Shown here in pieces: positions 40,621 to 49,604 of a DNA stretch of 64,000 nt (positions are counted from its first letter, which is position 1; every line of letters begins with the position of its first letter). The notes under the pieces were generated by a model. That model ran no database searches and had not been told where the DNA came from. It saw only the letters and a program-made list of their open reading frames with translations. Source of the stretch: Deltaproteobacteria bacterium (lineage in GTDB: Bacteria; Myxococcota_A; UBA796; SXON01); assembly GCA_947490345.1 (NCBI GenBank), contig CANLGL010000018.1, forward strand, positions 1-64,000, read 5' to 3'. Made by a program: the position numbers and the translations under genes.

Positions 40621-41767
40621 AGCTTTTCAGGAGTTCGGCGAGGCGCTCGTACTGGGCCGGCCGATTGTAGGCCTGCCCGCTGATACGCACGAAACACCGG
40701 TGGTCGTAGGCGGTGAACGGCACCTCGATCCGGTACTCTTGGAAGAGCCGCGCGGTGAGCCCAGGCGCGTCGGCGCCCGTCGCCCATGGGACGGCAACGG
40801 CGGCCATCGGCCCGTACCAGCGCGCCTCATCGGGGTGCGGAAGGCTGACACCGAGGGCGTGTGCCAGGCGCGCTCGGCCCTCCTGCACCAGGGCGTGGTT
40901 TTTCTCTCGCAGCGTGCTCACACCGAGCTCATCGAGGTGGTCGAGCGCCGCCGGCACCGACAGCCACGCCGTGGGATCGAAGGTCCCCGCCCACTCGAAC
41001 TCTGCTCGCAGGCCGAGCTCATAGCCGTGGCTCACGACGCGTGCGTGGATTCGGTCGCGCCAGGCGGGTCCGACCCAGAAGAGCGCCGCTCCCTTGGGCG
41101 CACAGACCCACTTGTGCAGATTTCCAGTGTAGAAGTCCGCCCCGATCGCGCCGATGTCCAGGGGCAACAGTCCCGGAGCGTGAGCGCCATCCACGAGCAC
41201 GGTGACCCCCCGCGCGCGGCAGAGCGCCACCAACTCGGTCACCGGAAAAATGAGCGCCGTCGCCGAGGTCACATGGTCGATCACCACCAACCGGGTACGC
41301 GGGCCGATGGCGAGGTCGAAGGCGTCGACGACCTGCTGCGGGTCCTGGATGGGGAAGGGCACCTCGGCCGCAACCATCGTGACCGAATGCCGATGCCCCA
41401 GGCGCAAGATCGCCTTCTTCACAGCGTTATATCCATGATCGGCGTGCACGACCTCGTCGCCGGACGACCAGTCGATGGCGCCGAGCGCCGCGTCGACCCC
41501 GTGGGTGGCGTTCGGCACAAAGACCAGGCCGGCGGCGTCAGCGCCCACGAAGTCTGCCACCCGCGCGCGCACCAGATCGAGCCGTTCGGGTAGGCGGCGG
41601 GCCAAAAACTCCACCGGCTCCGCCTCCATCTGCGCGCGCAGCTCGGCTTGCCGAGCCAGCACAACCCGGGGGGTGGCACCGAAGCTGCCGTGGTTGAGGT
41701 AGTCGACGGCAGGATCGAGCGCCCAGCGGGCGGTGAGCTCCGGAGAGCCGGGAGTCCAATCGGGCAT
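40613..41767 (-). CDS. Class V aminotransferase (isopenicillin-N epimerase-like)
   Basis: 384 residues from ATG 41767; the much longer reading to 42571 is antisense noise across the DUF481 gene. Fold-type I PLP enzyme with Lys219 in GNLHKWVCAPKGAA. Motifs LNHGSFGATPR at the start and VDGAHAPGLLPLDI before the lysine match isopenicillin-N epimerase/ergothioneine-type class V enzymes, which act as epimerases, lyases or desulfurases. There is no cysteine-desulfurase active-site loop. Divergent from the barrel gene at 41813. Confidence 0.85.
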   Translation of the reverse strand: MPDWTPGSPELTARWALDPAVDYLNHGSFGATPRVVLARQAELRAQMEAEPVEFLARRLPERLDLVRARVADFVGADAAGLVFVPNATHGVDAALGAIDWSSGDEVVHADHGYNAVKKAILRLGHRHSVTMVAAEVPFPIQDPQQVVDAFDLAIGPRTRLVVIDHVTSATALIFPVTELVALCRARGVTVLVDGAHAPGLLPLDIGAIGADFYTGNLHKWVCAPKGAALFWVGPAWRDRIHARVVSHGYELGLRAEFEWAGTFDPTAWLSVPAALDHLDELGVSTLREKNHALVQEGRARLAHALGVSLPHPDEARWYGPMAAVAVPWATGADAPGLTARLFQEYRIEVPFTAYDHRCFVRISGQAYNRPAQYERLAELLKSWR

Positions 41768-41812
41768 CCGCCCTCCTACAACGATACTCTTTGCCGACCC
41801 ACCGGAATCACC

Positions 41813-42607
41813 ATGCTGCTCCTGTGCCTGACACTGGCCCACGCCGAAGAGTCCAAGTTCGAGGGTGCGAAAGGCGCCACGGCGGCGAAGATGGTCACCG
41901 AAGCCCACGCCGGCGTCGAGTTGGGCGGCGCCCTCACCTCCGGAAACACCGAGACCATGGCCCTGACCGGGCTGGGAAACCTGTCGTATCGATGGCAGGC
42001 CAACGCCATCTCCGGCAGCTTCGGGGTCAACTGGGGGCAGGCCAGGATCGACGCCGATGGCGACGGCAAGCTGTCGACCGCAGAGCGTGAAGCCGACTTT
42101 GTCAAGACGGCCGACCGCGTGCTCGCGGCGCTTCGCTACGATCGGTTTTTCGGCAAACGCAACAGCATCTACGTCCTCGGCGGCGGCTTCAGCGACCCCT
42201 TCGCCGGCTACGACTCCCGGTTCAACGGCCAGCTCGGCTGGTCGCACAGCTTTGTCCAGCTCGAGACCGCTTCGCTGCGGGCAGAGCTGGGCGCGGACGT
42301 CGCACAAGAAGACTTCGTCGCGGGTATCGACCCCAACACGGCCACGGTGGTCTCGGCTCGTCTGTTGATCGGCAGCTCGTATTCGTTCAACCAGCACGTC
42401 AGCGCCCAGGACACCGTCGAGGTCTACGAGAGCGTGCTGGACATTACCGACCTGCGGCTGAACAACACCGCCTCGCTGACGGCGTCTCTGGGCTCGAAGC
42501 TCAGCTTGAAGTTGAGCCATCAACTGGCATTCGACAACGCCCCCGTGGAGGGGTTTCAATCGCTCGACCACACCACGATGGCCACGTTCGTCGTGACGCT
42601 ACTATGA
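41813..42607 (+). CDS. DUF481 outer-membrane barrel with an EF-hand loop
   Basis: 264 residues from ATG 41813 (MLLLCLTLAHA, a short uncharged signal). The rest is YdiY/DUF481-like: GVELGGALTSGNTETM opening, paired strands throughout and the closing FVVTLL. Between two early strands lies a complete EF-hand loop, Asp80-x-Asp82-x-Asp84-x-Lys86-x-Ser88-x-x-Glu91 (DADGDGKLSTAE), so the barrel may bind calcium in a surface or periplasmic loop. It is convergent with the large protease gene, 11 bp apart. Confidence 0.8.
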   Translation: MLLLCLTLAHAEESKFEGAKGATAAKMVTEAHAGVELGGALTSGNTETMALTGLGNLSYRWQANAISGSFGVNWGQARIDADGDGKLSTAEREADFVKTADRVLAALRYDRFFGKRNSIYVLGGGFSDPFAGYDSRFNGQLGWSHSFVQLETASLRAELGADVAQEDFVAGIDPNTATVVSARLLIGSSYSFNQHVSAQDTVEVYESVLDITDLRLNNTASLTASLGSKLSLKLSHQLAFDNAPVEGFQSLDHTTMATFVVTLL

Positions 42608-42618
42608 ACTGAACCGCG

Positions 42619-45435
42619 CTAATCGAGCGCGCGCCGGACCCACCCGACTTCCGTCTGCTCGATGACCGCGCTCGGCCAATACGCGAGGTCCAGCCGCAGG
42701 GCCAGGAGGCGCGGCCGACCGTCCAGGTCAACAACCGACAAGCGAACCGTGCTGCGATCCGCGCGCCCGGCAACCGCCTTCTCGAAGTCGCTGAGCGTCG
42801 CAATCGCGTGGCCGTCGACCGAGGTGATGCGACAGGTGGGAGCGAGGTCGTAGCGATCCGCCGGCGTGCCGAACCAACGCCAGGACACGTACACGCCACC
42901 GCCCTCGATGCCCTGCTGCAACGCCAACTCAGGGGGCAGATCCTGCACGATGGCGCCCGCCCAGTACAACGCGCGCGTGGCGAGGGCGCCACGACCCGCT
43001 GAGGTCCGGACGTCCACCGTCAGGAGCTCGCCAGCCCGAAAAAGCGTCAGGTTCACCACCGCCGCCTCGGCCGCAGCGAGCTCGAGGACGCGCCAACTTG
43101 CGGTCGGCTTCCCGCTGACCGCGACCAAGAGGTCACCCTCCTTGACGACCCCGTGTGCGGCGCTCGACCGGGACACGTGGGTCGCCATCAGCACGCGCGC
43201 AGCTCCCGCCTTCACCAGGGCCGCCGCCTCGCTTGCGAGCAGGCCCCGATCCACCGCGAGCGCGAGCGGAAGCGGGGACCACGCCACACCCAGGCTCCGG
43301 TCTGGGGGCGTGTGTCCCGCCCGCAGCGCGCTCGCGACGTCGGCCAGGATGTCCCCAGGCAGGCCGTAGAACGCGGCGCTTGCGCCCTTTCCGGAGCCGG
43401 TGAGGAAGGAGCCCAAGAAGGCGACCACCTCCCCCGCACGGTTGACCACCACCCCCCCACGCTCCAGCGGCGGAGCCGCCGTGGCGAGGACGTCCACGTT
43501 CAGGTCGCGGTACTGCGGCGTGGCCGGCGGCGCAAGAACGAAGGGGCGGTAGCCCTGAACGACTGTTTCGCCCCAGGAATATTCCAAGCGGCCATTGAGC
43601 CCCACCTGCCACACCGACGTCCCGGTCGCCGGGCGCTTGGCAGAAAGCCGCGCCGAGGTCAGCGACGAGCCCGTCAATTGTCTGGGATCGAACTGAATGA
43701 CGACGAGGTTGTGCTCCGGATGGACGTAGATCGGCACCGCCGGGACGCGCACGGCGCCCACGATCACGCTGATCTCTGCCAAGAGTTGGGGGACGGTGTC
43801 CCGATCGACGGCCACCAGTCCACGGTCCGCGTCCAAGACCAGCCCGACCCCCGAGTACTGGTCCCCTTCGTTGCCGGACAGTACAAACGGCAACCGCGCC
43901 TCAACCCAGACGAGCGCGTGCGCCACCTTGCCGGCGACCCCGGGCGGTGCCGGCGGCAGCGACACCGCCTGCGGCTTCACCGGCGGGGCCGGCGGCGGGG
44001 CCGGAAGGCCCACGCAAGGCCAGTCGCCGGTCACGTCGTCTCGCGTGCACACCTGCGCGGGGAAAAAGGTCCGCTCCATCCGCCAGCTCACGACTTGGGT
44101 ACGGTTCGGCTCGGTCAAGGTGACGAAGTGCAGGGGAACCCGCGCGTCGTCAGCAATTCCCACAATCGCATCGCGGAAGTGCGCGAGGTCAGGCGTGGGC
44201 CGACCATCGACCTCATCGATGCGCGCGCCGTCGGGCACCCCGGCCTGCCGAAGCGAATACCCGGCCGAGGCGACGTACACCCCCCGCACTGCGACGTTCG
44301 CGTTGCGGGCCTGTTGGAAGCTGAGCGTGTGCACCAGATCGCCACCGATCTCCAGGTAGGACGACGGCGTGATCGTGTGGAGGTCGGTGACGGGCACCTG
44401 CACATCCAGACGGTCAGGGCCACGTTGCACCCCCAGGAGCACGCTCCCGCCTGCCCGATCGTCGAGCGCCTCTTCCAACGGAACGAAGGCGTCCAGCGGG
44501 CTACCGTCGAGGGTCAGCACCACGTCTCCGACCCGCAGCCGGCCATCGGCGGGGCCGAGCGGGACCACCTCCTTGACCCCGAGCAAGCCCGCGAGCGTCG
44601 GATTGCGCTTGCGCGCGGCCGCCTCTTCGTCAGAGGGCAGCCCAAGTCGCGCCAGTTCGTCCCAGGGAACGGAGCCGAATACGGCCTGCAATGTGCCTCG
44701 AGTGACCGGCTTTTTGGCCTGCACCAGCTCCAGCGCGCGTTTGACCCGGTCGAGCGGCAGGTAGTACGACGCCGAGCTGTCCTTGCGGGCTCCTGCATTG
44801 AGCGCGACGACCTTCCCACGAAGGTCCAAAACCGGCGATCCCGAGGAGCCGCCGGTCGTCCCGGCCGCGGCCTGAATATAGAAAGTGTTGAAATCATTGA
44901 AAGACTGGCGGCCATACCGCGGAGCGTCACGATCCAGTCGGGCAATCGTTCCGGTGTGAATCGACAGCTTCTCGCCGGCGTTGTTGCCCACCACCCGAAT
45001 TTCCTGCCCGATCCGCACGCCCGCCGGGTCCAGCTCCAACGCCGGCAAGCGGCTGTACTTCACCGCCGCCGGATCGTACTGGTAGAAGCCGAAGTCGTGT
45101 ACCGGGTCGCGGTAGATCGCCCGTAGCGGAATCACCTCGTTCTCCTGGGTGATCGCCTCGCTGCGCACCGGACCGGCGGTCACGACGTGGCGGTTGGTCA
45201 GCACGATGCCGCGGGCAGCGTCAACGACAAATCCGGTGGCGTAGCTGTGGCGGGCGTTCTCCGTGTCGAACGCGCGGGTTTCGACGAAGTCGATGGAGAG
45301 CACCGCCGGGGTGGCGGCAGCGAGCATCGTGGCCCACGGGTCCGTGGTCTGCAGTTGCTCCGCGGTTGGAGGTAGCCGCAGACGCGGCGGGGCCGCCGGC
45401 GTGGGCGCGACGAACAGGAGCAGGGTGACCAACAT
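42619..45435 (-). CDS. Nma111/Deg7-type double-domain HtrA serine protease
   Basis: 938 residues from ATG 45435, with a short signal-like start (MLVTLLLFVAPTPAA). The active trypsin domain (about 30-240) has His83 in LTNRHVV, Asp114 in RDPVHDFGF and Ser198 in GGSSGSPV. The strings RVVGNNAGEKLSI, RLDRDAPRYG and FNDFNTFYIQAAA are those of fungal Nma111 rather than DegP. Two PDZ domains (about 265-350, 360-455) follow. A second protease-fold domain (about 505-720) has lost the triad (AVDRDTV, LERGGVVV), and two more PDZ domains end the protein. Nma111 and plant Deg7 share this duplicated layout. Likely envelope protein quality control. Confidence 0.9.
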   Translation of the reverse strand: MLVTLLLFVAPTPAAPPRLRLPPTAEQLQTTDPWATMLAAATPAVLSIDFVETRAFDTENARHSYATGFVVDAARGIVLTNRHVVTAGPVRSEAITQENEVIPLRAIYRDPVHDFGFYQYDPAAVKYSRLPALELDPAGVRIGQEIRVVGNNAGEKLSIHTGTIARLDRDAPRYGRQSFNDFNTFYIQAAAGTTGGSSGSPVLDLRGKVVALNAGARKDSSASYYLPLDRVKRALELVQAKKPVTRGTLQAVFGSVPWDELARLGLPSDEEAAARKRNPTLAGLLGVKEVVPLGPADGRLRVGDVVLTLDGSPLDAFVPLEEALDDRAGGSVLLGVQRGPDRLDVQVPVTDLHTITPSSYLEIGGDLVHTLSFQQARNANVAVRGVYVASAGYSLRQAGVPDGARIDEVDGRPTPDLAHFRDAIVGIADDARVPLHFVTLTEPNRTQVVSWRMERTFFPAQVCTRDDVTGDWPCVGLPAPPPAPPVKPQAVSLPPAPPGVAGKVAHALVWVEARLPFVLSGNEGDQYSGVGLVLDADRGLVAVDRDTVPQLLAEISVIVGAVRVPAVPIYVHPEHNLVVIQFDPRQLTGSSLTSARLSAKRPATGTSVWQVGLNGRLEYSWGETVVQGYRPFVLAPPATPQYRDLNVDVLATAAPPLERGGVVVNRAGEVVAFLGSFLTGSGKGASAAFYGLPGDILADVASALRAGHTPPDRSLGVAWSPLPLALAVDRGLLASEAAALVKAGAARVLMATHVSRSSAAHGVVKEGDLLVAVSGKPTASWRVLELAAAEAAVVNLTLFRAGELLTVDVRTSAGRGALATRALYWAGAIVQDLPPELALQQGIEGGGVYVSWRWFGTPADRYDLAPTCRITSVDGHAIATLSDFEKAVAGRADRSTVRLSVVDLDGRPRLLALRLDLAYWPSAVIEQTEVGWVRRALD

Positions 45436-45474: not shown

Positions 45475-45855
45475 TCAGCCGCCTTTGGGCGCCTTCTTCG
45501 CCTTGGGCGCCGCGGCCTTCTTCACTTTGGGCGGCATGGCGGCGGTGTAAGTCAACGCCTCGGTCGCGTAGGCGCGAAGCGCCTCGGCGGGGTGGGCGGC
45601 GATTTCCAACTGCACGTAGTCCTTCCACGGACGGCCACTCATCGGCTCGAACCGGACCGCGGTACCCGCCACGTGGAGCGCGCTCGTGCGCTCCACCCCC
45701 AGGCGCGCAACCAATGTCTGGGCGAACGTGCCGAAGAACATGTTCCCGTTGACGAAGGCGCAGGGATGACCAAACATGGCCCCTTTGACGGCGCCCGGAT
45801 CGTCGGGGACGGCAGCGTTGTACGCCGCCACGGTCGCGGAGTTCGGACGTTCCAT
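45475..45855 (-). CDS. TfoX N-terminal domain protein with basic tail
   Basis: 126 residues. TfoX_N-type fold at about 1-100: GAVKGAMFGHPCAFVNGNMF and LHVAGTAVRFEPMSGRPW. The C-terminal 20 residues are a Lys/Ala/Pro tail (KVKKAAAPKAKKAPKGG) like histone H1-type nucleic-acid-binding tails. TfoX/Sxy proteins regulate competence in some bacteria, but stand-alone N-domains mostly have unknown roles. It follows gyrA on the same strand after a 94-bp gap. Confidence 0.8.
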   Translation of the reverse strand: MERPNSATVAAYNAAVPDDPGAVKGAMFGHPCAFVNGNMFFGTFAQTLVARLGVERTSALHVAGTAVRFEPMSGRPWKDYVQLEIAAHPAEALRAYATEALTYTAAMPPKVKKAAAPKAKKAPKGG

Positions 45856-48623: not shown

Positions 48624-49604
48624 TCACTCGCCCCAGTCTTCGCCGCTGGTGTCGGGGACACCGCTGGTGCCACCGCTGCCATCATCGTCCTCGTCGTGAC
48701 GACGCTTGCCCTTGCGGCGCTCCCACTCCTGGGCCTTTCGGCTGCGCTCTTCTTCGAACTTGGCCTCTTCTTGCCGCCGGCGCTGGGCCGCGAAGCCGCC
48801 GCCGCCGCCAAAGCCGCCGCCTGGGCGGCCGCCGCCGCCACCACCGCCGCCGCCACCACCACCACCGTAGCCGCCGCCGCTCGGCCGACCGCCGCCGCCG
48901 CCGTAGCCGCCCCCTGAGGGGCCGCCACCGCCGCCGCCGTAGCCGCCGCCCGAGGGGCCGCCGCCACCGCCGCCGTAGCCGCCGCCCGAGGGGCCGCCAC
49001 CACCGCCGCCGTAGCCGCCGCCCGAGGGGCCGCCACCACCGCCGCCGTAGCCGCCGCCGCCGGAGGGAGCCCCGCCGCCGTACCCGCCGCCGCTGGGCCG
49101 GCCGCTGCCATAGCCGCCCCCGGGAGGGGCGCCGCCGCCACCGCCATAGCCGCCGCCAGGACGGCCTGCGCCACCATAGCCGCCACCCGTTGGGCCGCCG
49201 GTGGGATCGCCATCGCCCCCACCCGGATCGCCCTCGCCCCCGCGCGGGCCGCCGGTCCGATACACGGCTTGCGGTGCGAAGCCTTCACGGGGACGCCGCG
49301 GGCCGCGGTCGGCACCCGGGGGACCACCGAATCCACCACCACCGCCGCCGCCTTCGCGCGGACGGGCGATGTTGACCTTGAGCGGACGCCCGGCCACGTT
49401 GAAGTTGTCCAGGGCCTGAACCGCCGCCTCGGCCTGGGCCTCGGAAGCGAACTCGACGAAGCCGAAGCCTCGCGGCTTACCGGTTTCCCGGTCGATGATC
49501 AGGTTGATGCTCACGACCTCGCGGCCATCTTGGCCGAAGATCTCTCGTACATCGTCGTCAGAGATTCGGTAGGGGAGGTTCCCCACATACACGTTTCGAG
49601 ACAT
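48624..49604 (-). CDS. RRM RNA-binding protein with long Gly/Tyr-rich repeat domain
   Basis: 326 residues. One RRM (1-82) carries RNP2 VYVGNLPY and RNP1 KPRGFGFVEF. From about 120 to 275 comes a low-complexity region of repeated SGGGYGGGGGGP units with Tyr every 9-11 residues, then a basic/charged tail (RRQEEAKFEEERSRKAQ) and an acidic end. The RRM is like small cyanobacterial Rbp proteins, but the added region resembles eukaryotic GRP/hnRNP condensate-forming tails. Likely an RNA chaperone or cold response protein. The sequence of the repeat DNA is itself a direct repeat array. Confidence 0.9.
   Translation of the reverse strand: MSRNVYVGNLPYRISDDDVREIFGQDGREVVSINLIIDRETGKPRGFGFVEFASEAQAEAAVQALDNFNVAGRPLKVNIARPREGGGGGGGFGGPPGADRGPRRPREGFAPQAVYRTGGPRGGEGDPGGGDGDPTGGPTGGGYGGAGRPGGGYGGGGGAPPGGGYGSGRPSGGGYGGGAPSGGGGYGGGGGGPSGGGYGGGGGGPSGGGYGGGGGGPSGGGYGGGGGGPSGGGYGGGGGRPSGGGYGGGGGGGGGGGGGRPGGGFGGGGGFAAQRRRQEEAKFEEERSRKAQEWERRKGKRRHDEDDDGSGGTSGVPDTSGEDWGE
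48880..49085 (-). repeat. Direct repeat array coding Gly/Tyr-rich units
   Basis: Near-identical units of about 39 bp (GCCGCCGCCGTAGCCGCC core on the plus strand, with GAGGGGCCGCC between) repeat five to six times. They encode YGGGGGGPSGGG-type peptides in the RRM protein and are prone to copy-number change. Confidence 0.8.

Follow-up and report, generated by a model that had tools for sequence, protein, structure and literature searches.

Gene and domain organization

The window, by which we mean the whole 64,000-nucleotide stretch of DNA that was analyzed, carries a reverse-strand gene for a large protein of the HtrA protease type (Table 1). Its domains are arranged as a signal-like N-terminus, an active trypsin-like protease domain, two PDZ domains, a degenerate trypsin-like domain and two further PDZ domains. 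All four active-site motifs quoted in an initial annotation of the locus (RDPVHDFGF, RVVGNNAGEKLSI, FNDFNTFYIQAAA and GGSSGSPV) are present verbatim in the 938-aa protein. Pfam searches with this protein matched Trypsin_2 in two stretches (1.6e-29) and PDZ_1 in two stretches (1.5e-26), along with other PDZ models. Because full-length homologues with 34–87% identity occur in Myxococcota and some Gammaproteobacteria, and because dN/dS against an 87% identical homologue is 0.10 overall, a chance open reading frame is ruled out.

Table 1. Features of the double-unit protease gene, with positions in the window
Feature	Position	Strand	Basis or remark
Nma111/Deg7-type double-unit HtrA protease gene	42619..45435	-	938 aa, ATG start, no internal stops
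Hydrophobic N-terminus, export-signal-like (MLVTLLLFVAPTPAA...)	45376..45435	-	sequence; low model confidence
Active trypsin-like protease domain 1, residues 31-240	44716..45345	-	Trypsin_2, 90 bits; model; Trypsin_2 match at 44800-45240, E 7e-25, in Pfam search of the window's genome
Catalytic His83	45187..45189	-	invariant in 47/47 homologues
Catalytic Asp114	45094..45096	-	invariant in 47/47 homologues
Catalytic Ser198 in GGSSGSPV	44842..44844	-	invariant in 47/47 homologues
PDZ 1, residues 245-350	44386..44703	-	PDZ_6/PDZ_Tricorn at 287-340; model
PDZ 2, Pfam PDZ_1 type, residues 351-450	44086..44385	-	PF12812 at 44149-44373, E 1.1e-18
Degenerate trypsin-like domain 2, residues 501-712	43300..43935	-	Trypsin_2 at 43420-43758, E 3.1e-5; model; Foldseek
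Domain 2 His position, Asp546	43798..43800	-	His in 0/47 homologues
Domain 2 Asp position, Asn576	43708..43710	-	Asn in 42/47 homologues
Domain 2 Ser position, Gly660	43456..43458	-	Ser in 2/47 homologues; loop alignment approximate
PDZ 3, residues 713-815	42991..43299	-	PDZ match at 752-789; model
PDZ 4, Pfam PDZ_1 type, residues 816-938	42622..42990	-	PF12812 at 42769-42978, E 3.6e-7

Distribution and genomic setting

Every genome sampled from the window's genus carried a homologue, in some cases interrupted by a contig end, as did most of the order to which the genus belongs. A profile of the N-terminal unit detected the family in about a third of the Myxococcota genomes sampled, roughly 100 of 331 (102 were counted, the weakest of which, in genome G284, is a DegP). 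The family was present in 18 of 274 genomes of a gammaproteobacterial sample and, with a stricter full-protein query, in 5 of 398 genomes sampled across the phylum Pseudomonadota. Named matches came mostly from Myxococcota ("Deltaproteobacteria") and Gammaproteobacteria, among them Colwellia psychrerythraea GAB14E and Catenovulum maritimum Q1. Wherever the contig was uncut, an open frame of about 900 aa or longer encoded the double protein. Searches of viral contigs and plasmids revealed no relatives. Nor did the 331 Myxococcota genomes contain a single-unit relative with the family motifs; the frames inspected as possible single-unit intermediates (L127–L130) were plain DegP-type proteins with GNSGG and were rejected as ancestors.

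Two gammaproteobacterial genomes (G643 and G635) harbor strongly diverged double-unit members (L105 and L106), to which the window query aligns only as far as residue ~588 though the ORF is ~900 aa long. A locus labelled Oligoflexia in GenBank has a protease ORF equal in score and length to that of genome G040 (L061 and L035); since G040 belongs to the window's own order, the label is probably a misassignment.

Within the genus the protease gene lies near gyrA in several genomes, and in most it is adjoined by a convergent gene for a DUF481 protein (41648–42607, forward strand, E 6e-35, in the window). This conserved setting identifies an inherited chromosomal gene, neither contamination nor a recent import. 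Where the initial annotation had offered transfer or an ancient origin, the genus-wide synteny and the occurrence in roughly a third of Myxococcota genomes favor ancient origin and argue against recent transfer. Gene neighbors were also considered as functional evidence and set aside, being housekeeping genes that differ by lineage.

Two other neighbors were observed. A small TfoX_N-like ORF (45475–45855, reverse strand; E 8e-4, below the cut-off) lies ~40 bp upstream of the protease gene on the same strand, and a relative is located near the protease gene in L046. Just upstream of gyrA, an ORF at 48624–49604 (reverse strand) combines an RNA-binding-type start (MSRNVYVGNLPYRISDDDVREIF) with a long Gly-rich tail of GGGYGGGGGGPS repeats; it resembles glycine-rich RNA-binding proteins and also sits beside gyrA in L038 and L039.

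Tandem duplication and separation from DegP

AlphaFold2 modelled the whole protein with a pLDDT of 91.5 and a pTM of 0.88, residues 9–20 falling below a pLDDT of 50, and residues 496–938 alone with values of 93.1 and 0.90. In Foldseek searches the second half matched the entire protease-PDZ-PDZ unit of DegP (E 4.3e-22), as well as DegQ, Deg2 and Deg9. A profile built exclusively from the C-terminal halves of 47 homologues matched E. coli DegP across the protease, PDZ1 and PDZ2 (E 1.5e-20). The second trypsin fold anticipated by the initial annotation at residues 505–720 was recovered at ~505–712 by profile match, AlphaFold2 and Foldseek. In addition, an hhalign comparison of the two halves showed them to be homologous (probability 100, E 3e-47, 400 columns). 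The DegP match of the second half and the half-to-half homology establish that tandem duplication of a DegP-like protease-PDZ-PDZ unit gave rise to the 938-aa double protein. A profile search of the PDB returned no Nma111/Deg7-like chain, its best matches being DegP at about 1e-22 to 1e-20.

In a tree of both halves with DegP, N-halves formed one clade (99/98) and C-halves another (100/99), and the two were jointly apart from DegP (100/100), with long branches meeting between the C-halves and DegP. Since the halves form separate clades, a single duplication preceded the split of the sampled members, including provisional yeast and plant sequences (see below). A second tree, with DegP-type proteins of related genomes and of E. 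coli as outgroup, also separated the family with 100/100 support. PDZ_1 (PF12812) was present in all 47 homologues, in two stretches in the window protein; it was absent from E. coli DegP, DegQ and DegS and above cut-off in none of 14 control genomes.

The protein might alternatively be an ordinary DegP/DegQ-like protease that gained its second half independently and converged on the Nma111 layout. Its best NCBIfam model is indeed that of the Do family (TIGR02037), yet the score of 130.8 bits is far below the cut-off of 416.2. Such convergence is further opposed by PDZ_1, which DegP, DegQ and DegS lack, by the 100/100 separation from DegP, by the plain DegP character of the single-unit matches inspected among Myxococcota, and by the grouping of both halves of the provisional eukaryotic sequences with the corresponding bacterial halves. 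We regard it as highly improbable.

The protein approaches 1000 aa in length and comprises an active protease, two PDZ domains, an inactive protease and two PDZ domains, with the first triad intact and the second mutated, as defines Nma111 and Deg7; DegP and DegQ are defined by one protease domain within the E. coli DegP/DegQ clade. Plant Deg7, of about 1000 aa, has the published order PD-PDZ-PDZ-PDia-PDZ-PDZ (PMC3473262). Consistent with the initial annotation, which placed the protein outside ordinary DegP and likened its architecture to Nma111/Deg7, domain order, universal PDZ_1 and separation from DegP in the trees agree. The window protein is thus a genuine bacterial member of the Nma111/Deg7 ("clade III" Deg/HtrA) kind.

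Catalytic state and selection

Alignment of 47 diverse homologues showed the domain 1 triad (H83/D114/S198) to be invariant. In domain 2, no homologue had H at the His position (D, E, N, S or T instead); the Asp position was occupied by N in 42 homologues, and the Ser position mostly by G, with Ser in two; no conserved substitute nucleophile was detected among the 47. A second protease domain devoid of its triad had been noted in the initial annotation, and this holds for the window protein (D546, N576, G660) and the family alike. Relative to the 87% identical homologue, dN/dS was 0.085 for the degenerate domain, 0.038 for the active domain and 0.23 for PDZ1. The motifs DRDTVP and HPxHN of domain 2 are strongly conserved across the alignment. 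Both units are under purifying selection.

Purifying selection on domain 2 and conservation of DRDTVP and HPxHN could be taken to indicate that the second half itself acts catalytically or allosterically, for example through a changed triad or by gating unit 1, instead of serving oligomer assembly. We consider this unlikely: His is lost in 47 of 47 homologues and Asp and Ser in nearly all, with nothing conserved to replace the nucleophile, and the dead protease domain of AtDeg7 is reported to drive trimerization (PMC3473262).

Comparison with eukaryotic and bacterial relatives

Fungal HtrA/OMI has been described as carrying PDZ_1 as its additional domain (PMC5982838). That Nma111 has relatives in bacteria was already known in principle, since Klim et al. 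(2018) place some bacterial proteins nearer to OMI/HTRA from yeast than to the human HTRA (PMC5982838). In the literature searched, which included few subscription papers, the double-unit family was not described from Myxococcota, no experiments with bacterial members were reported, and the eukaryotic active-site motifs gave no match.

The yeast Nma111 and Arabidopsis Deg7 sequences used here are provisional and not authentic records, so that comparison with them serves as a lead only. The provisional AtDeg7 has 1097 aa, exactly the published length; the provisional Nma111 has 990 aa and is presumably a few residues short at the C-terminus, with its catalytic Ser at 236, in agreement with the literature position. 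The provisional Nma111 was 33% identical to the window protein over 929 aa; for the provisional Deg7, identity was 45% across unit 1 and 27% across unit 2. Scored against the bacterial N-unit profile, the provisional sequences reached 630–660 bits in all, compared with a maximum of about 107 for DegP-type proteins; their best stretches gave 542–602 bits, with no DegP-type protein above 102. HPxHN replaces the catalytic Asp of domain 2 in the bacterial proteins and provisional eukaryotic sequences alike, and the same degeneration therefore seems to have been inherited.

Like S. cerevisiae Nma111/Ynm3 in its provisional sequence, the window protein has the six-domain order, PDZ_1, RDPVHDFGF / GNDAGEKLSI / GGSSGSPV and, in the dead domain, HPxHN. 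Nma111, however, is nuclear and tied to yeast apoptosis, whereas an export-like signal marks the bacterial protein, for which no counterpart of Bir1, the yeast target, is known. With Arabidopsis Deg7, a clade III plant Deg/HtrA, it shares domain order, a length of ~1000 aa and a first unit that is 45% identical in the provisional sequence; Deg7 differs as a stromal chloroplast protein of photosystem II repair and, in the provisional sequence, by a longer linker between units. Each half resembles one protease-PDZ-PDZ unit of E. coli DegP and DegQ, periplasmic HtrA proteins that are nonetheless single-unit, 22–25% identical, free of PDZ_1 and marked by a GNSGG rather than a GGSSGS active site. 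The magnetosome proteases MamE and MamO (the latter a pseudoprotease) are also HtrA relatives but are separate proteins with a different function and match only weakly.

Probable origin of the family and direction of exchange

Both halves of the provisional eukaryotic proteins grouped with the matching bacterial halves, apart from DegP. The full-length tree split the two provisional sequences, while the N-unit tree and the C-halves joined them, on long branches. Because eukaryotes are where the family is best known, bacteria could have acquired the gene from a fungus or alga, with later spread among Myxococcota and Gammaproteobacteria, and an AU test with the provisional sequences did not reject a tree that unites all bacterial members and leaves the eukaryotic pair outside (p = 0.29). 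Against such an entry stand the breadth of the family, which occurs in about 100 of the 331 Myxococcota genomes as well as in gammaproteobacterial lines that are deeply separate, the putative export signals on bacterial members, and the abundance of single-unit DegP-type relatives in the same bacteria. Moreover, when C-halves were rooted on their N-half paralogues, the provisional eukaryotic C-halves fell among the bacterial ones, gammaproteobacterial lines lying further out. We judge a eukaryotic source to be quite unlikely.

The gene belongs to a widespread, ancient bacterial family and is very probably no stray borrowed from a eukaryote. The family would have arisen and diversified in bacteria, spreading there mainly by vertical descent. 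Eukaryotic Nma111 and Deg7 appear to carry the same duplication, which would imply one exchange between bacteria and eukaryotes, more probably from the former to the latter. Tentatively, and at somewhat less than even odds, the source of eukaryotic Nma111/Deg7 may have been an envelope protease of myxobacteria or Gammaproteobacteria, acquired with the duplication and the inactive half already in place, and not the DegP of the mitochondrial ancestor; loss of the export signal would then have made the protein nuclear or stromal.

PDZ_1 double-unit proteases are common in Myxococcota and also occur in some Gammaproteobacteria; the family is poorly described in bacteria and will surprise those who know it only in its yeast and plant versions. 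This provides plant Deg7 and Nma111, the apoptosis protease of fungi, with a concrete bacterial sister group, and the direction of transfer between bacteria and eukaryotes becomes testable by tree. Proteins of Colwellia and Catenovulum are tractable candidates for a first structure of the double-unit type.

Predicted export and function

Hydropathy revealed a hydrophobic N-terminal stretch in 70 of 76 family members and a lipobox-like motif in eight; the N-terminus of the window protein has no basic n-region. Judged by sequence, bacterial members are probably exported, unlike their nuclear or stromal eukaryotic kin, whose intracellular setting does not itself define the group, and with such different locations the substrates must differ. 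The explanation that best covers the whole, to which we assign a probability of about three in four, is an exported, ATP-independent quality-control protease/chaperone of the Nma111/Deg7 group, in a free-living bacterium, whose dead half serves assembly. The protein would be delivered to the periplasm, and in some relatives may be lipid-anchored there. Without needing ATP, unit 1 would cut envelope proteins that are damaged or misfolded, with substrate presented by its PDZ domains. By analogy with AtDeg7 trimerization, the dead unit 2 is predicted to hold the oligomer together. Ynm3/Nma111 has chaperone activity (PMC4877387), and by analogy unit 2 may also bind substrate as a chaperone.

PDZ1 is the fastest-evolving part of the protein, with 73% identity between the two closest relatives versus 95% in the protease domain, perhaps reflecting a changed substrate.
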